A DNA stretch of 64,000 bases, from assembly GCA_019358855.1 (NCBI GenBank), contig JAHHII010000001.1, positions 124,001 through 188,000 on the forward strand, in the 5' to 3' direction. A program made the position numbers and the translations under genes. The stretch comes from Timaviella obliquedivisa GSE-PSE-MK23-08B (lineage in GTDB: Bacteria; Cyanobacteriota; Cyanobacteriia; Elainellales; Elainellaceae). The notes under the pieces were generated by a model that ran no database searches, was not told the DNA's origin, and saw nothing but the letters and a program-made list of their open reading frames with translations. Of the stretch, positions 53,322 through 60,777 are shown piece after piece; position 1 is the first letter of the stretch, and the number at the start of each line of letters is the position of its first letter.

Positions 53322-55556
53322 ATGCCGCATCCTCTTTATGTCGCTTTCATTTGGCATCAGCATCAGCCGCTTTACAAGAGCCGCCTAGCGGGAGAATATC
53401 GCCTTCCTTGGGTGCGATTGCATGGTACGAAGGATTATTTAGATTTGGTGCTGATGTTGGAGCGGTATCCGAAGTTGCACCAAACGGTAAATTTGGTGCC
53501 TTCGTTGATGATGCAAATTGAAGATTATGTAGCAGGAACAGCGTTTGATCCCTACCTATCATTGGCGTTGATGCCGACAGAGATGTTAGAGCGGCAGCAA
53601 CGACGGTTTATTGTTGAACATTTTTTTGATGCTAATTATCGGACGTTGATTGCGCCCCATCCGCGCTATGCCGAACTGTACAATCAGCGGCAAGATAAAG
53701 GTCAGGATTGGTGTTTAGAGAATTGGACTTTGCAGGATTTTGGAGATCTGCTGGCTTGGCACAACTTGGCGTGGATTGATCCCCTATTTTGGCATGACCC
53801 AGAAATTGCTCAATGGCTAGAGCAGGGTAAAGGGTTTAACTTGAGCGATCGCCAGCGCATTTATTCCAAGCAACGCGAAATCCTCAGCCGCATCATTCCT
53901 CAACATCGCCTGATGCAAGAAACAGGACAGCTTGAGGTCACTACGACTCCTTATACTCACCCCATTCTGCCGCTGTTAGCCGATACTAATGCTGGACGAG
54001 TGGCAGTACCCAATATGACCTTGCCCCAGCAGCGCTTTCAATGGGAGGAGGATATTCCTCGGCATTTGAGCAAAGCCAAGGTTATGTACCAAGAGCGATT
54101 CGGCTGCAACCCTAGGGGGCTATGGCCTTCTGAACAGTCGGTTAGCCCGATTATTTTGCCCTATGTTGCGGAACAGGGTTTCCAATGGCTGTGTTCTGAT
54201 GAGGCGGTTTTGGGCTGGACGACGCAGCATTTCTTCCATCGAGATGGGTCGGGGACTGTCGAAGATCCAGAGTTGCTTTACCGTCCGTATCGTCTCAACA
54301 CGCCCAACGGTGATTTGTCGATCGTCTTCCGCGACCACCGCTTGTCTGACCTAGTAGGCTTTACCTACAGCGCTATGGAGCCGCAGAAGGCAGCAGCAGA
54401 TTTGGTAGGACATTTAGAATCGATCGCCCGTTCTCTGAAACATCATCAGCTTGAACAAAGCACGGTTTTAGAAAATCCTTGGCTGGTAACGATCGCCCTG
54501 GATGGCGAAAACTGCTGGGAATATTATGCGCAAGATGGTAAGCCGTTTTTAGAATCGCTCTACCAAAAGTTGAGCGACCATGACACTGTTGAACTAGTGA
54601 CGGTTTCAGAGTTTATTGAGAAATTTCCGGCAACCGTGACCCTGCCGAGCGATCGCCTCCACAGCGGCTCTTGGGTCGATGGCAACTTTACGACTTGGAT
54701 TGGTGATCCCGCCAAGAATCGCGCCTGGGATCTGCTAACCACTGCTCGCCAAGTATTAGCCAACCATCCCGAAGCCACTGAAGAAAATAATCCTGATGCC
54801 TGGGAAGCGTTGTATGCCGCAGAAGGCTCGGACTGGTTCTGGTGGTTTGGAGTGGGGCATAGCTCTAACCAAGATGCCATGTTCGACCAGCTATTCCGCG
54901 AACATTTGGCGGCTTTGTACGAATCTCTGAATGAACCTGTCCCTGTCGAAATTCGTCGCCCTATAGAAGTTCACACCGCCCAAGGTGCTCACAACCCTAG
55001 CGGCTTCATTCACCCTATCGTGGATGGCAATGGCAATGAGCAAGATTGGGATAAAGCCGGGCGCATTGATATTGGCGGTACTCGGGGCACGATGCACCAA
55101 AGCAGCACTGTTCAGCGCCTCTGGTATGGGGTCGATCACCTCAACCTGTATTTGCGCCTGGACTTTAAGCCTGGAGCCAAGCCCGGAGCCGATTTTCCGC
55201 CTGAGCTTCATCTGCTTTGGTTTTATCCCGATCGCCAGATGAAGAATAGTCCCGCCCCGATCGCCGAACTGCCCGACGAACTACCTGTCAGCTATCTATT
55301 CCACCACCATCTGGGTGTTCATCTCACAACTCAATCAACCTGGTTTCAAGAAGCCGTCGAGAATTATCAGTGGCACTCACGCCCCACTCGCGCCCAGGTT
55401 GCTTTCAACACCTGCCTAGAGATTGCCTTGCCTTGGGCAGATCTGCATCAGGTCGAACCAGACTGGGCGCTCCGTCTAGTTGTCGTTTTAGCCGATGAGG
55501 GGCGCTACATCGGATCAATTCCAGAAGATTCACTGCTTTCCATAGATGTTCCTTAA
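53322..55556 (+). CDS. Glycoside hydrolase family 57 protein
   Basis: A 744-residue GH57 enzyme (alpha-amylase/4-alpha-glucanotransferase/branching enzyme family). The five family motifs can be followed: AFIWHQHQPLY (8-18), a TTPYTHPILPLL block (about 208-219), GLWPSEQSV with the likely nucleophile Glu (about 264-272), WLCSDEAVLGW and IALDGENCWEYY with the acid/base Asp (about 390-401). Residues about 540-744 form a C-terminal beta-rich domain with DUF1925/1926-like features. Probably acts on glycogen or a related glucan. The stop overlaps the convergent gene by four bases. Confidence 0.9.
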   Translation: MPHPLYVAFIWHQHQPLYKSRLAGEYRLPWVRLHGTKDYLDLVLMLERYPKLHQTVNLVPSLMMQIEDYVAGTAFDPYLSLALMPTEMLERQQRRFIVEHFFDANYRTLIAPHPRYAELYNQRQDKGQDWCLENWTLQDFGDLLAWHNLAWIDPLFWHDPEIAQWLEQGKGFNLSDRQRIYSKQREILSRIIPQHRLMQETGQLEVTTTPYTHPILPLLADTNAGRVAVPNMTLPQQRFQWEEDIPRHLSKAKVMYQERFGCNPRGLWPSEQSVSPIILPYVAEQGFQWLCSDEAVLGWTTQHFFHRDGSGTVEDPELLYRPYRLNTPNGDLSIVFRDHRLSDLVGFTYSAMEPQKAAADLVGHLESIARSLKHHQLEQSTVLENPWLVTIALDGENCWEYYAQDGKPFLESLYQKLSDHDTVELVTVSEFIEKFPATVTLPSDRLHSGSWVDGNFTTWIGDPAKNRAWDLLTTARQVLANHPEATEENNPDAWEALYAAEGSDWFWWFGVGHSSNQDAMFDQLFREHLAALYESLNEPVPVEIRRPIEVHTAQGAHNPSGFIHPIVDGNGNEQDWDKAGRIDIGGTRGTMHQSSTVQRLWYGVDHLNLYLRLDFKPGAKPGADFPPELHLLWFYPDRQMKNSPAPIAELPDELPVSYLFHHHLGVHLTTQSTWFQEAVENYQWHSRPTRAQVAFNTCLEIALPWADLHQVEPDWALRLVVVLADEGRYIGSIPEDSLLSIDVP

Positions 55557-58500
55557 ATTCCCCAGTTACCCCACTCGTCTTGTGCTTCTTCCTTCGTATT
55601 GGTATTGCGGGAAGGAGTTTCACGTTTGAAGTTGAGATGGACAGAGCGATTCTGTTCGCCATCGGCGGCGATCGCCATGATTGGGAAATCTAAAACGCCA
55701 TCTTGGAAGGATAGTTGAATTCGGAAGGTGCCATCTGGGTTAAGTTGAATCGGCTGACCGCCAATGGTTAACTTTGCATCTGGTTCAGTGGCACCGTAAA
55801 CGATGAGTTCGGCATCGGCTACCAGCCAGAACTGGCGAGGACGAATAGGTGGAATAGAGGCAAAGCCAATCCCCGACATCATGCCAATTCCTGACATGCC
55901 AATCCCCGACATATTCTGCCCTGACATCATCCCAATACCTGACATCCCTACTCCCGACATGCCCATTCCGATTCCAACCCCCGACATCCCTACTCCTGAC
56001 ATGCCCATTCCGATTCCAACCCCCGACATCCCTACTCCTGACATGCCCATTCCGATTCCAACCCCAGACATCCCCACTCCTGACATGCCCATCCCGATTC
56101 CAATCCCCGACATCCCTACTCCCGACATGCCCATTCCAATTCCAACCCCAGACATCCCTACTCCCGACATGCCCATCCCAATTCCAACCCCAGACATCCC
56201 CACTCCCGACATGCCAACGCCTGACTGTGTGACAAATGAGCTAACCGAGGGAACCTGTTGCACAGAGCCAAAGATAGAGCCTGCGACCCGCTGAGCCTCG
56301 GCAGCCTGAGCTAAGTGATAGGTGGTGGGAATGGTTTGGAAAGTGCGGCTGCTTCTAGGAGGAGAGAGTTCTAAGAAGGTTTTGTCTTTAAGAGTGTCAT
56401 CCCAATTCAGGGTTATTTCCTGATCATCCACCCAATCGGAAGGATAGACAGGTGGAATGCGGATGGGGAGCGATCGCGCCAGCAACAACCACTGACCATC
56501 GGCAGTCAGATAACCAATCTCGGCTCGATAATCGCGATCGCTTACAGGCACTGGCAAGTACCAATCGCGCGCAAACTCTTCGCACTCAAACTGCTGCAAG
56601 CTGTGAGAATTGGTCACCGTCAGGTCAATATCGGTCACATCATAAAGCCGTAACGCCAACCGTGTACCGCCTTGCCGCCGCACTTCTTCCCGGTGCGACT
56701 GAGGCACATCCCAGTAGGCATAAGCCCAATGAGGATCACGAGGGATCAGAACAATCTGGCTTTCACCATAGCCATCGGGCAGGTCAGGCAGACCTACATC
56801 AACTGCTGCTAGTTCTTCGCGGGTTAAGTCGTTTTGCCCCACGTCAAACCTGGCAGCTTCGACAGCAGATTGAGCATCGTCTAGGGTGGCTGAAGGGGGC
56901 TGGACTGATTGAGAGGACGGTGATAGAGAGGACGGTGATGGAGAGGACGGTGATGGAGAGGACGGTGTAAAACGAGAAGTAATAGCGGCTCCTGCGATCG
57001 CCGCACCCGCCACGCCCGTTACATCCGCCAAGTCAGTATTCCAAAGAGGTTCTTCACTTGCAGATTCTTCAATAGGTGTTGGAACAGAAGCTTCTGCTGC
57101 TGACGTTTCCATCTCAATGGGAACCTCAGCTATAGGCTCCTGCACAACAGGCTCCTGCACTACGGGTGATACAGGTTCTTCTACTTTAGGCTCTTGTCCC
57201 ACGGACGCTTCTACTAAAGGCGCTTGCGCAGATCCTTCAGTCTCTACTACCACTGCCTCAGGCGTAGACTCTTCAGGCAGAGGTGCTTCGTCGTCCCAAG
57301 GATTCGCTTCAACAGGGACATCTCTTCGAGGAATTGCCGACAGACCCGCGATCGCAGCGGCTCCAGCCGCTGCACCCATTGCTAACCCACTGACTCCAAA
57401 CCTCTGAGATTCCTCACTTGCAGGCACCTCTCCTGAAGGCTCGCTTGTCAAAGGCTCGCTTGTCAAAGGCTCGCTTGTCAAAGGCTCGCTTGTCAAAGGC
57501 TCACTTGTTGAAGACTGAGTCGTCGATGTTTCTGGATGATTTCCACCATTCACACCATTAATTGCCACCCGATCGGCAGAAATAACCGATCCGGCTCTTT
57601 CTGCCAAACCCGCTCCATCAGTTGTGTTAGGAGGAGGTTCCACACTGACTGACTCTGTAGGTAACGGAGAGGTCGTTGCCTGAACCGAGGTGCGGCGGCG
57701 CTTAAGCCACCATCCCAGCAACAAGCCCAGTAAGGGTAATAGCAACCATCCTAACCAGGATGGTGTGTCTGCCGAATCGGGAGGTAGGGTGGCGACGGGC
57801 GCAGGTGCCTGGGTGACAACAGTATTTGGGTCAGTATTTGGGTCAGGAGTGGCAACAGCATTGGGATCAGGAGTGACAGAGGCTACTAGAGGCTGATCTG
57901 CTGGGGAAGTTCCTGCTGCTGGGGAAGCCCCTGAATTGGTTGCGGGGTCAGATGCGATCGCAGCAGCCTGTGCCGATCCGATGGCGGCTTGTCCTATGGC
58001 AGCCGTTGCCAGACCCAAGAACGTGGCTGCTGCTGGGCTGGGTGCAGTGCCCTGATAGACATACGCAAGCGGTTGGGAAAAAGGATAGCGTTGGTCAGAG
58101 GGCAGAACATCGTGCATCGGTACAATGCGCGCGCCTGGATAATCTTCTGGGCTAGCGTTTGGGTTGGCGATCGCGTAGCCAATTCCATCTGAGCCTAATT
58201 CTTTTAAGACCGTTGCTGTCGTATCATCAGTAAGCTTGACAGCGCTGGTTGCCGACTCAAACGGGCGGTTCTTAAAGACAGGATAGCGGCTGAAGGCGGT
58301 GCGAGTATCGCTGGAAACAGGGCGATCGACCACTCGAATAGCACCGGGAGCGCCTCCCACTTGTGACCAGTCTGTAATTTCGCCACGGAAAATTTGGGCA
58401 AATTGTGAGGTCGTTAAACTGCCTTGAAAAGCATTCTCTTCACCCACCAAGATCGCAATTTTGTTGCGACTCACGGGAATTTCTACCAACCCCTGAGCCT

Positions 58501-58852
58501 TTTCAGCATCGGTCAAAGGACGACCGATCGCCGCTAAGTCAACGTTGCCAGCTAACAAAGCCTGAATGCCTTCATCAGTTCCGGTGTATTTCACATCAAC
58601 CGTTGTTCCTGCATACTGACTCTCAAACTTTTGTTTAAGCGCAGTATTGGCGATCGTCATGCTAGTAGAACCCTCAATTTTGACGGTTGTCTCAGGCGAC
58701 ACCGAAGGTTGCAGTGGGAAAGGAGGGGTAGATTGCGCTAAGAGCGGACTCGTCAACAGAGGCAGACGATTTGCTAAAGCTTTGGGCACTCCTGCAACTG
58801 AAAGCAGCAGAGCCAACGTCAATACAGAGGAACTTCTTTTTTGAAAGGTCAT
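55553..58852 (-). CDS. Mosaic protein: phosphate-binding-like domain, membrane anchor, DUF4912, Gly-Met repeats
   Basis: A 1099-residue protein. Signal peptide about 1-28. A PstS-like periplasmic-binding domain (about 55-290) has VKIEGSTSMTIANTALKQKF and VDLAAIGRPLTDAEKAQG, but the phosphate loop SGSGT is replaced by PVSSDTRTAF. A membrane helix (about 365-386) is followed by an Arg stop. A low-complexity stalk carries SEPLT and SPSSP repeats (about 430-680). DUF4912 lies about 690-815 (IVLIPRDPHWAYAYWDVP). Gly-Met repeats (about 880-996) consist of six copies of 14 residues, and a beta-rich tail (about 1010-1075) has AELIVYGATEPDAKLTIGG. DUF4912 proteins are common in cyanobacteria, but the assembly is unusual. 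If the receptor domain faces the periplasm, DUF4912 should lie in the cytoplasm. Function unknown. Confidence 0.8.
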   Translation of the reverse strand: MTFQKRSSSVLTLALLLSVAGVPKALANRLPLLTSPLLAQSTPPFPLQPSVSPETTVKIEGSTSMTIANTALKQKFESQYAGTTVDVKYTGTDEGIQALLAGNVDLAAIGRPLTDAEKAQGLVEIPVSRNKIAILVGEENAFQGSLTTSQFAQIFRGEITDWSQVGGAPGAIRVVDRPVSSDTRTAFSRYPVFKNRPFESATSAVKLTDDTTATVLKELGSDGIGYAIANPNASPEDYPGARIVPMHDVLPSDQRYPFSQPLAYVYQGTAPSPAAATFLGLATAAIGQAAIGSAQAAAIASDPATNSGASPAAGTSPADQPLVASVTPDPNAVATPDPNTDPNTVVTQAPAPVATLPPDSADTPSWLGWLLLPLLGLLLGWWLKRRRTSVQATTSPLPTESVSVEPPPNTTDGAGLAERAGSVISADRVAINGVNGGNHPETSTTQSSTSEPLTSEPLTSEPLTSEPLTSEPSGEVPASEESQRFGVSGLAMGAAAGAAAIAGLSAIPRRDVPVEANPWDDEAPLPEESTPEAVVVETEGSAQAPLVEASVGQEPKVEEPVSPVVQEPVVQEPIAEVPIEMETSAAEASVPTPIEESASEEPLWNTDLADVTGVAGAAIAGAAITSRFTPSSPSPSSPSPSSLSPSSQSVQPPSATLDDAQSAVEAARFDVGQNDLTREELAAVDVGLPDLPDGYGESQIVLIPRDPHWAYAYWDVPQSHREEVRRQGGTRLALRLYDVTDIDLTVTNSHSLQQFECEEFARDWYLPVPVSDRDYRAEIGYLTADGQWLLLARSLPIRIPPVYPSDWVDDQEITLNWDDTLKDKTFLELSPPRSSRTFQTIPTTYHLAQAAEAQRVAGSIFGSVQQVPSVSSFVTQSGVGMSGVGMSGVGIGMGMSGVGMSGVGIGMGMSGVGMSGIGIGMGMSGVGMSGVGIGMGMSGVGMSGVGIGMGMSGVGMSGVGIGMGMSGVGMSGIGMMSGQNMSGIGMSGIGMMSGIGFASIPPIRPRQFWLVADAELIVYGATEPDAKLTIGGQPIQLNPDGTFRIQLSFQDGVLDFPIMAIAADGEQNRSVHLNFKRETPSRNTNTKEEAQDEWGNWGI
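55959..56210 (-). repeat. 42-bp coding tandem repeat (Gly-Met), six copies
   Basis: Six head-to-tail units begin at 55959, 56001, 56043, 56085, 56127 and 56169. Each encodes GVGMSGVGIGMGMS with a few Val/Ile changes. Synonymous differences between units show that they have been kept by selection or have had time to diverge. Confidence 0.95.
56911..56968 (-). repeat. 15-bp coding tandem repeat (Ser-Pro-Ser-Ser-Pro)
   Basis: The unit gagaggacggtgatg occurs about four times (56911, 56926, 56941, then a partial at 56956), encoding a SPSSP stalk segment. Confidence 0.9.
57436..57510 (-). repeat. 15-bp coding tandem repeat (Ser-Glu-Pro-Leu-Thr), five copies
   Basis: The unit aaggctcgcttgtca occurs five times from 57436, the last with two changes, encoding SEPLT repeats in the stalk after the membrane anchor. 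Near identity suggests recent expansion. Confidence 0.95.
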
Positions 58853-58890: not shown

Positions 58891-58937
58891 AGTTAATTTT
58901 TGCACAAGGTCATTGTAAAAAAGTTAATTTTTACACA
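58891..58937 (-). promoter_or_regulatory. Direct repeats upstream of the mosaic gene
   Basis: agttaatttttgcaca (58891-58906) and agttaatttttacaca (58922-58937) match at 15 of 16 positions and start 31 bases apart, about three helical turns. They lie 39-85 bases before the start codon at 58852, on the minus strand reading TGTG(C/T)AAAAATTAACT. Likely binding sites for a regulator; a PhoB (Pho box) role is suggested by the PstS-like domain but the spacing does not match the usual Pho box. Confidence 0.5.
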
Positions 58938-59013
58938 TCAATTTGCGAACTAATTAATTTTCCGTCTATTTTGATAGCGTTATGGGCCGCTTTCCCTTCG
59001 TGTCACGCTGTAT

Positions 59014-59424
59014 ATGACTCGCCCCGAAGACTTACCCAAAGAATTACTACCAGATTCTCAAACCCAATTTCAACAGCAAGTTCTTAGACTGCATCAGGTT
59101 ACAGTGTATAGCCGCTGGTTGTTTGTCGCCCTGCTTTGGCTGTTCATTGCTCCACTTTGCTTGTGGCATTTACGCTCTGAAATTGAGCTATGGCTCGATT
59201 ATTTTACCTGGACGGCTGTCCGTTATACGATCATCTACAATCGGGTTGCCTCGATTGGACTGGCGCTCTGTGTGGCTTGGACAATGAGCGTTTTACTGTG
59301 GCAAAGCCGTAATATTGTGCAAGGAATTTCGGCAGAGGAATGGCGATCGCTAGAAAAACAGGTTCTCAGAATTCGCCAACAAGGTAAAAGTCATCCTCTT
59401 TGGAAATGGGTTTGTAAACCCTAA
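59014..59424 (+). CDS. Small two-helix membrane protein, unknown function
   Basis: A 136-residue protein from an ATG at 59014, with two membrane helices (about 34-52, SRWLFVALLWLFIAPLCLW, and about 78-98) and a C-terminal charged helix (EEWRSLEKQVLRIRQQG). It looks like a conserved cyanobacterial membrane protein, but I do not recognise a family name. It is divergent from the mosaic gene. Confidence 0.6.
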   Translation: MTRPEDLPKELLPDSQTQFQQQVLRLHQVTVYSRWLFVALLWLFIAPLCLWHLRSEIELWLDYFTWTAVRYTIIYNRVASIGLALCVAWTMSVLLWQSRNIVQGISAEEWRSLEKQVLRIRQQGKSHPLWKWVCKP

Positions 59425-59463: not shown

Positions 59464-60162
59464 TTATGGCGGACAAATCAATTTTGTAAAATCGCACTTA
59501 TAGAGATGAGTTTGTTGCCAACTGAGCGGAATTTCTAACAAGTCGCGAGTTCCGGTGAAGGCTTGCCCCACAAACAGCAACAGCGCAATACAGTTAAGTA
59601 CGATGTGAATATTGCGCCAGCGATTTGTCCGATCTTGGTAGATGTCAGGAAAAATGGCAAGGGAAAAAATCATCAGCATTGCTGCGGCAATGCCGTAGTA
59701 GTAGTGCGAGACATACCACTCGTAGCCCCGTCGAAAGACCTCGGGTTGGCAACCCAGCAAAATCAGCCCCATGCTTGTTAATGAGGCAAAGATTCCTCTC
59801 CAAAGTTTGGGACGCGCCTGGTTGAGAATGACGAGAGAGGCGATCGTCAGGGGGAAAAGCAAGACCACGAAGGTAAAGCGAGTTGCGTCTTTTGTCCAGG
59901 TTTGATCGGGGATCATTTTGGAGAAAATAGGATGCGCTACTCCAATTAACACTAGCCCCACGACTGAATTGCTAAGCCATTGCCCTAACTTAAGATGTTC
60001 AGAACCGACGTTAGACGGAATTTTTCCTTTGGTGCCGTCTGCTGCTTTAAGGCGACGTTGGCGGGTTTGCCAAGCGTAGTTAACCACTATGCCAATAATA
60101 GGAAATACAAAAAAGATGGCGATCGCCGGATGAACTAACCCTGCAATATCTTTCGCGCCCAT
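59464..60162 (-). CDS. DUF4079 membrane protein
   Basis: A 232-residue DUF4079 protein with about six membrane helices (for example GLVHPAIAIFFVFPIIGIVV at 8-27). Some cyanobacterial members resemble b-type cytochrome fragments; His residues occur in the first and later helices (LVHPA, GVAHPIF, VSHYYYG), which might bind haem, but that is inference. I start at the ATG at 60162 (GAAGAGG upstream), since earlier codons run through the hairpin at 60206-60257. Downstream of the DM13 gene on the same strand. Confidence 0.8.
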   Translation of the reverse strand: MGAKDIAGLVHPAIAIFFVFPIIGIVVNYAWQTRQRRLKAADGTKGKIPSNVGSEHLKLGQWLSNSVVGLVLIGVAHPIFSKMIPDQTWTKDATRFTFVVLLFPLTIASLVILNQARPKLWRGIFASLTSMGLILLGCQPEVFRRGYEWYVSHYYYGIAAAMLMIFSLAIFPDIYQDRTNRWRNIHIVLNCIALLLFVGQAFTGTRDLLEIPLSWQQTHLYKCDFTKLICPP

Positions 60163-60205
60163 ATCAAGCCTCTTCGTCTCAAAAGTGTTCTCGTTCCCAG
60201 CATTC

Positions 60206-60257
60206 ATGCTTCCAGCAGGTGCTTTTGCGAAATCACAAAAGCACCTGCTGGAAGCAT
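60206..60257. repeat. Perfect 22-bp inverted repeat (hairpin)
   Basis: Two 22-base arms, atgcttccagcaggtgcttttg (60206-60227) and its exact complement (60236-60257), are separated by eight bases (cgaaatca). It lies between DM13 and DUF4079. There is no T-tract on the minus strand, so it is not a canonical terminator; it may be an RNA-stability element or a mobile-element remnant. Confidence 0.93.
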
Positions 60258-60285
60258 AGCGCAATCAATACTTATAATGATCCAC

Positions 60286-60777
60286 TTACAATGAAGTAAA
60301 GGGTGCGTAGCCGAACGTAGCGTTAAATTGACGACACCAGATTACCGCTGATTGAAAGTTGGCTAAGTCTACATCATCGGGAATGGCATAGCGCTGTTCG
60401 CCTTTAACGCTTTGTAATCTGCCCAAACTAATATAGTTCTGCGCATCATAAGTTTGGGGCATTTGATCTCGGTGCAGCAACACAAATAAATCGGGACCTT
60501 CATCCGACTTAAACGCTTGATCAAACACCAAATAACGCTTGCCGTTTTCTGTCACAATCCTCGCTGTGCCCTCAGTTGGATGCTCGGAGGCAACGAATTG
60601 ACCGGATTGAGCTACCGGAGATGCAGCAAATATCTGCGGTTGAGTTGGGTTTGAGATCACAGACGAGGGGGTGACTGCCTCTGTAGGCTGAAGGGCGGCT
60701 TCATTTCGAGTGCAAGCTATGGTAAGGGTAGCAACAGCGACGATCGCTCCTAGCGTCAGGTACTTTAATGTCATCAT
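60286..60777 (-). CDS. DM13-domain lipoprotein
   Basis: A 163-residue lipoprotein (signal ending TLTIAC, Cys about 22) with a C-terminal DM13 domain (about 58-160): GQFVASEHPTEGTARIVTEN, YLVFDQAFKSDEGPDLFVLL and AVIWCRQFNATFGYAPF with Cys 148. DM13 is proposed to act in electron transfer through its conserved Cys; cytochrome-like DUF4079 lies next to it on the same strand. ATG start at 60777 with AGGGAA upstream. Confidence 0.88.
   Translation of the reverse strand: MMTLKYLTLGAIVAVATLTIACTRNEAALQPTEAVTPSSVISNPTQPQIFAASPVAQSGQFVASEHPTEGTARIVTENGKRYLVFDQAFKSDEGPDLFVLLHRDQMPQTYDAQNYISLGRLQSVKGEQRYAIPDDVDLANFQSAVIWCRQFNATFGYAPFTSL

Follow-up and report, generated by a model that had tools for sequence, protein, structure and literature searches.

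A widespread cyanobacterial family of receptor-like proteins that fuse a PstS-like binding domain to a DUF4912 tail

Contig JAHHII010000001.1 of the cyanobacterium Timaviella obliquedivisa GSE-PSE-MK23-08B (assembly GCA_019358855.1) was analysed over a stretch of 64,000 nucleotides (positions 124,001 to 188,000; hereafter the window, in whose own numbering coordinates are given), and the subject of this work is a gene on its minus strand, at 55553-58852, that encodes a receptor-like protein of 1099 residues. The protein joins a binding domain of the PstS/Sll0540 class, through a predicted membrane helix, to a tail composed of DUF4912, an array of SG(V/I)GM-type pentapeptides, and a conserved C-terminal domain. 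The family to which it belongs is real, widespread, and apparently unstudied rather than a freak of the window genome, and the number of pentads in its array co-varies with that in a second protein, in which a Rho_N domain precedes the same kind of tail. The explanation favored here, tentatively and at somewhat less than even confidence, is that the protein is a single-pass membrane receptor (or a tethered scaffold) whose self-associating tail works together with the Rho_N protein.

Architecture and predicted folds

The open reading frame (ORF) starts with ATG and opens with a signal-peptide-like segment (residues 1-27, hydrophobic over 9-27; 58772-58852) that was recognized by hydropathy and not by a dedicated signal-peptide predictor. 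The Sll0540/PstS-like binding domain follows (residues 53-295; 57968-58696), with a match to PBP_like_2 (PF12849) at residues 55-279 (E 3.2e-34, 119.4 bits against a curated cut-off of 27), and within it lies an altered anion loop, SSDTR, in which Asp replaces Gly (residues 180-184; 58301-58315). A membrane helix predicted from hydropathy (residues 365-383; 57704-57760) is followed by KRRR. The linker beyond it comprises SEPLT repeats (a 15-bp tandem repeat of 4.9 copies; 57436-57508), an Ala/Gly-rich, moderately hydrophobic segment that is a possible second membrane contact (residues 489-507; 57332-57388), and Ser/Pro repeats (a 15-bp tandem repeat of 4.1 copies; 56906-56967). DUF4912 (PF16258) occupies residues 695-810 (56423-56770; E 1.9e-41, 141.4 bits against a curated cut-off of 29.4), the pentapeptide array residues 877-996 (55865-56224, with six 42-bp copies inside), and a C-terminal Ig-like domain, delimited by conservation and predicted fold, has its core at residues 1011-1075 (55628-55822). 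A first-pass annotation made from the DNA letters had described a single 1099-residue frame with a signal segment, binding domain, anchor, DUF4912, and a six-copy Gly-Met repeat; the ORF, Pfam, and hydropathy analyses bear this out, and the repeat corresponds to a tandem array of 6.5 copies of a 42-bp unit at 55941-56215 (93% matches). The conserved C-terminal domain after the array and the Ala/Gly segment were both overlooked at that stage. Pfam and NCBIfam scans of the protein detected no enzymatic output domain (kinase, cyclase, or other).

Residues 670-1099 were modeled with AlphaFold2 from 53 sequences. Most blocks of DUF4912 had a predicted local distance difference test (pLDDT) score of 94-97, with two lower, while the array region (residues 835-999) scored below 50; the predicted template modeling score of 0.38 means that no arrangement of the domains can be read from this model. 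Compared with FN3 domains, the DUF4912 model gave Foldseek E-values down to 1.7e-4 and VIA Z scores up to 10.3 (root-mean-square deviation 3.1 over 94 residues), and DUF4912 is thus predicted to be an FN3-like beta-sandwich. The end domain was modeled confidently within residues 670-1099 and, folded alone, had a mean pLDDT of 90; searched by fold, it resembles Ig-like domains only weakly, glucodextranase 1ug9 scoring highest (Z 6.8), and no family is assigned to it. A search of solved structures with a profile of the tail gave one chance-level match (E 0.9). The array is probably disordered according to the model.

Distribution of the family

Three genes of the window genome encode DUF4912, namely the receptor-like gene, a Rho_N-DUF4912 protein (L067), and a paralogue (L068), and the domain was present in 60 of 60 relatives examined. 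A first set of loci, window included, yielded 67 ORFs with a periplasmic-binding-protein-type (PBP) domain and DUF4912 in one frame; 28 of these have one DUF4912 and the end domain, 13 have two, 8 have three, and 18 lack the end domain. In a second genome scan, 401 of 423 pattern-matched stretches encoded a relative of the binding domain, and the best 80 of these 401 made up a second locus set, in which DUF4912 was also found in 70 of 82 PBP-holding ORFs. Since 23 of these 70 fusions duplicate ones of the first set, there are 114 distinct PBP-DUF4912 fusions in all. Forty loci drawn from the top of a ranked list included 38 with fusions, a rate that should not be read as a frequency. Named relatives include Nodosilinea nodulosa PCC 7104 and Calothrix sp. 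PCC 7716. The architecture recurs across many genera, so the protein, initially viewed as an unusual mosaic, is a member of a widespread cyanobacterial family, and an assembly fusion is ruled out by the same architecture occurring in many genomes. In the same-genus genome G001 the gene copy is split into several frames and reaches a contig end (assembly coverage 2.39). In a tree of DUF4912, inner and array-adjacent copies cluster apart, but eight label changes are needed and the two do not form clean clades. Searching the tail against plasmids gave no match.

Several variants were observed in passing. A relative from G050 (L036:6911-10096) has a WD40-like stretch between its PBP domain and its DUF4912 copies (374-399 over the Pfam cut-off, E 4.6e-7). 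In L147:6331-8763 and L160:4978-7455, a similar ending of about 130 residues (by eye, with no Pfam match) replaces the Ig-like end, and L147:6331-10035 is a tandem pair of binding-domain genes, one with and one without DUF4912. G036, a 1.7-Mb genome of the same class, keeps a single diverged DUF4912 protein with the end domain and almost no array (L073:7109-8305).

The open-licence literature that was searched held no study of the window protein, PF16258, or structure 9L8J, which is not to say that none is in print, and a search there for cyanobacterial "Rho termination factor" together with "domain of unknown function" gave no match. Within that literature, DUF4912 is named in one paper, in a table of cotton gene expression, and a Nodularia genome paper describes a gene like sll0540 as potentially encoding a phosphate-binding protein. 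The first-pass suggestion of a system not described before therefore holds as far as this literature goes, but the architecture is not unique to the window, being that of a widespread family.

The pentapeptide array and its co-variation with a Rho_N protein

The array of the window protein holds 17 SG(V/I)GM-type pentads between residues 877 and 991. Among its six aligned 42-bp copies, codon differences summed over the 15 pairs (which are not independent) are synonymous in 42 cases and non-synonymous in 5, even though non-synonymous sites are about three times as numerous as synonymous ones, which indicates selection on the protein. Proteins that combine DUF4912 with the end domain, 79 in number, yielded 665 SGxGx units; 644 of these units have V, I, A, or M at position 3, and at position 5 there are 429 with M, 94 with L, 53 with F, and 38 with I. 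The rule is therefore one of Gly alternating with hydrophobic residues in which Met is not invariant. The earlier proposal that the Gly-Met array binds copper or another soft metal finds no support in this pattern, and a metal site in the array is not favored, Met often being exchanged for Leu, Phe, or Ile. The pentads resemble the elastin-like pentapeptide GVGVP in their periodicity, their two Gly, and their hydrophobic residues; they differ in lacking Pro, in having Ser and Met/Leu/Ile instead, and in being predicted to be intracellular, and no homology is claimed. Unit numbers in receptor forms with the end domain fall at 0 (8 proteins), 2-4 (23), and 14-43 (18).

The Rho_N-DUF4912 protein presents DUF4912, SG(V/I)GM units, and the end domain in the same order as the receptor-like protein, and differs in carrying Rho_N where the latter has its binding domain and helix. 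The domain type binds nucleic acid in Rho. The window genome's copy has 10 units and the same end domain, and the tail halves compared are mostly 56-70% identical to that of the window protein (a comparison that mixes receptor and Rho_N forms); the receptor tail is the counterpart of the C-terminal half of the Rho_N protein, minus Rho_N. A Rho_N match was found in 34 of the 36 genomes of the window's family (27 of 27 near-complete ones), and in 32 of the 36 it lies in the DUF4912 frame; in G016 the two share a contig in a broken frame, and in G033 Rho_N stands apart from DUF4912. All 20 Rho_N loci from other families encode a complete Rho_N-DUF4912-end-domain protein. Many Rho_N proteins of the window's family have 7-48 units, whereas 20 of 22, mostly from other families, have 1-4, the remaining two having 10 and 13.

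Pentad counts in the two proteins of a genome are correlated. From 29 genomes of the window's family, 23 complete pairs were obtained (rho 0.81). Three genomes were left out because the receptor ORF is open at a contig end (Rho_N/receptor units: G012, 25/22; G021, 4/0; G023, 23/33), G016 because it has no complete Rho_N frame, and two because the Rho_N frame lacks the end domain (G030, 11/18; G035, 4/47). Twenty further genomes, picked among those whose receptor loci had been collected, added 19 pairs from other families, G141 having no receptor with the end domain, and over the resulting 42 genomes rho was 0.82; the PBP domain is in the same frame as the receptor ORF in 39 of the 42 pairs and absent from it in 3. 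When genomes are scored as expanded or not, both proteins are expanded in 17 and neither in 24, such that 41 of 42 agree. The first-pass annotation had considered that random variation in repeat length, with absence from close relatives, would speak against its interpretation. Copy number does vary widely, and several relatives have few units or none, but the variation tracks a second protein. Receptor length outside the array shows no correlation (-0.18, n=39), and the repeat content of the flanks a weaker one (rho 0.27 and 0.23). Gene conversion as the cause is rejected, as neither tail of a genome is a copy of the other: a tail was most similar to that of its own partner in 4 of 14 cases, and mean 4-mer overlap was 0.137 within and 0.112 between genomes. 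Read most simply, these sequence patterns suggest that the arrays of the two proteins cooperate through self-association.

A number of observations weigh against the proposed receptor and its partnership with the Rho_N protein. The paralogue L068, in the same genome as the window, is a PBP-helix-DUF4912 protein without an array and without the end domain, 8 of the 49 receptor forms with the end domain have no units at all, and 14 of the 67 fusions have no scored helix near the PBP domain. The disorder of the array is read from low AlphaFold2 confidence alone. The cut-off for expansion (7 units) was chosen post hoc, after the data had been seen, and the co-variation depends in part on how a unit is defined: under a looser pattern rho falls to 0.74 and 40 of 42 genomes agree. 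G199, the discordant genome of the strict count, whose receptor tail has tandem SGLTM units missed by the SGxGx pattern, then becomes concordant, and G009 and G025 (one of three expansions) become discordant. In G037, the Rho_N protein (L072) has 13 units and there is no close receptor domain (best E 4.5e-10). Moreover, in a tree of Rho_N proteins built without the array, the expanded label changes three times, two of the changes being forced by well-supported branches; the co-variation thus comes from two or three independent expansions, a small effective sample for which no nominal p-value is quoted.

A lineage effect may lie behind such a pattern, and the most serious competing account is that repeat slippage or composition drifted lineage-wide in two or three clades, leaving the array as neutral filler. 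We regard this as possible but unlikely. It draws on the small number of origins, on G037 and the dependence on unit definition, and on the slight positive correlation shown by repeats in the flanks (rho 0.27 with p 0.08; rho 0.23 with p 0.14). It sits less well with the mostly synonymous differences among array copies, with concordance in 41 or 40 of 42 genomes depending on the pattern, and with tails that have not been homogenized.

Topology

A hydrophobic segment precedes the binding domain in 52 of the 67 fusions, and in 53 a helix was scored no more than 160 residues beyond that domain. Around this helix, the C-terminal side has the excess of Lys and Arg in 50 of these 53 proteins, the two sides are equal in 3, and the N-terminal side has it in none. 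As Lys and Arg are more frequent on the C-terminal side, the binding domain is predicted to lie outside and the DUF4912 tail in the cytoplasm, which agrees, as a prediction, with the first-pass reasoning that a periplasmic binding domain would place DUF4912 inside. The start of the Rho_N sister protein, a conserved charged ERPPLEEMTLRQLR stretch with no signal-like hydrophobicity, likewise agrees with a cytoplasmic home for DUF4912. The Ala/Gly segments could add membrane contacts.

This bears on a further alternative, in which the protein is an envelope or scaffold protein with an elastin- or silk-like mechanical tail, the PBP domain serves as an adhesin, and the co-variation reflects a shared mechanical assembly. 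Read as GVGMS, the pentad resembles elastin GVGVP, and scaffolds often contain FN3- and Ig-like modules, although function does not follow from fold. The charge bias, however, places the tail inside, the sister protein with the same tail bears Rho_N and a start without a signal-like stretch, and the conserved pocket residues described below suggest ligand binding. A mechanical role is accordingly judged rather unlikely.

Binding domain and its ligand

The closest solved relative of the binding domain is Sll0540 of Synechocystis (PDB 9l8j; phmmer E 4e-52 over residues 3-242 of 243), which is named a PstS homologue in one paper. Its structure retains the SGT anion loop, in contrast to SDT in the window protein; SGT is also the loop of 1twy and, read by eye, of four other PBPs of the window genome. 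The first-pass annotation had noted an altered phosphate loop, and the alteration proves to be fixed: Asp replaces Gly in 111 of the 114 distinct fused domains (134 of 137 before duplicates were removed), Thr follows in 100 of 114, and two Arg near the loop are kept in 114 of 114 (137 of 137). The pocket is under constraint, and the loop substitution is a property of the family. In PstS of E. coli this loop contacts phosphate, so a fixed Asp at that position argues for another ligand, which from the sequence is probably a small molecule other than plain phosphate.

The window protein shares with PstS proteins the PBP_like_2 domain and the conserved Ser/Arg anion site, and differs in falling below the PstS model cut-offs (TIGR02136, 92.4 against 206.6 bits; TIGR00975, 35 against 205 bits), in its altered loop, in not lying beside pst genes, and in being fused to a tail. 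The two pst loci of the genome are on other contigs, each with its own PstS (L269 and L272), and these pass TIGR00975 (338 and 330 bits) and fail TIGR02136; a further protein, L267, passes TIGR02136, and L268 fails both models. PstC was detected over the cut-off on contigs C6 and C5 only, with no match on the window contig (C1). These data are relevant to the idea that the protein is a tethered solute-binding protein that captures phosphate or a related anion for a Pst-type importer, its tail being a mere anchor. Kinship to PstS/Sll0540 and the conservation of Arg and Ser at the anion site speak for that role, but the protein fails both models while the PstS of each pst locus passes TIGR00975 and L267 passes TIGR02136, its family has an Asp in the loop where SGT was read in four other PBPs of the genome, the pst loci are already served by their own PstS, and a plain anchor would have no need of DUF4912 and an end domain that are conserved. 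We therefore consider it improbable.

Binding-protein-type receptors are represented by BvgS and LuxP/LuxQ, to which the likeness would be the use of a binding-protein fold as a sensor with a membrane-spanning output; the window protein differs from them in that no enzymatic output domain was found in it. Elsewhere in the window genome (L273:1021-3255, contig C25), a 744-residue protein combines a kinase-like domain (Pkinase E 2.6e-5, under the Pfam cut-off) with a C-terminal PBP domain, the two parts separated by a hydrophobic stretch (by eye), and may be a further sensor use of the fold.

Gene neighborhood and promoter

The receptor-like gene is convergent with a GH57 ORF on the plus strand (53322-55556), and the two overlap by 4 bp at 55553-55556, as the first-pass annotation had noted. 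A link to GH57 did not survive comparison: GH57 is next to the gene in the window and next to that of one relative (L060), so in 2 of 101 loci (some of them truncated at contig ends, and about 25 with the Rho_N-type protein only), and in 0 of 80 in the second set, and GH57 is rejected as conserved context. That the protein belongs to glycogen or glucan metabolism together with this convergent, overlapping neighbor is consequently very improbable and largely refuted as a conserved link. Neighbors are conserved only within lineages: 11 loci share a small membrane protein encoded divergently, and of 25 loci with the Rho_N form 11 share a different neighbor; a group of signaling neighbors spanning 19 loci was set aside, as single linkage had joined it through common domains. 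In the window, the small membrane-type protein is at 59014-59424 (plus strand, no Pfam match), divergent to the receptor-like gene, and all 11 loci with it in this place are from the window's family. Farther upstream on the minus strand are DUF4079 (59464-60264) and DM13 (60286-60777) proteins, with a DUF4079-type neighbor in 8 loci.

Direct repeats upstream of the gene, also noted in the first pass, were confirmed as AGTTAATTTTT[G/A]CACA at 58891 and 58922; on the gene strand they are two copies of TGTG[TC]AAAAATTAACT spaced by 31 bp, or about three helical turns. A promoter-like TTGATG-18-TACAAT on the minus strand (58912-58941) matches at 9 of 12 positions, which is weak alone, as 4 such sites occur in the region against 3.2 expected. 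Copy 1 (58891-58906) follows the -10-like box, a position that the element also takes in relatives, and copy 2 (58922-58937) lies within the spacer between the -35- and -10-like boxes. Both copies also precede the G001 gene. A single copy, TCTTTTGCAAAAATTAAC, is found about 10 bases after a TATAAT box in 22 of 76 PBP genes of relatives; the 76 include members without the end domain and distant families, and the window is outside the 22, its spacing and first bases being different. A strict pattern of the element occurred in 12 of 36 genomes, at one place in each and always just upstream of the receptor gene, with no occurrence of the reversed control. A looser search (up to 2 mismatches) of the window genome gave 8 matches against 7 for the control, such that only the two exact copies count. 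A regulon is hence rejected, strict matches all being at the receptor gene and looser ones at the control level, and the TTTTGCAAAAATTAAC element has the appearance of an operator or leader element specific to this gene.

Proposed mechanism and implications

Under the favored reading of a single-pass receptor or tethered scaffold, the PstS/Sll0540-class domain on the secreted side would recognize a small ligand, probably other than plain phosphate, and one helix would join it to a cytoplasmic tail consisting of a flexible linker, the FN3-like DUF4912, the probably disordered array, and the Ig-like end. The pentad arrays would most likely act as hydrophobic stickers through which the receptor and the Rho_N protein cluster, and the state of the ligand outside may cause the Rho_N protein to be recruited to the membrane or released from it. 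A bolder version, which we rate as unlikely at present, is that an outside ligand controls a condensate-like assembly inside, the receptor tail and the Rho_N nucleic-acid-binding protein co-assembling via their matched arrays and so keeping the handling of RNA or DNA at the membrane; the agreement in array length would then be the evolutionary trace of this contact.

What began as an odd reading frame can now be described as a family for which a fold and a topology are predicted, whose binding loop is altered in a way that suggests another ligand, and which has a conserved promoter element and a candidate partner that can be tested, and the suggestive link to that second protein is what makes the function of the family testable. 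DUF4912 is carried by every one of the relatives examined, yet almost nothing is recorded of it in the open-licence literature searched. Should the link to the Rho_N protein prove true, the family would represent a new way for bacteria to couple chemistry outside the cell to nucleic-acid proteins within it.

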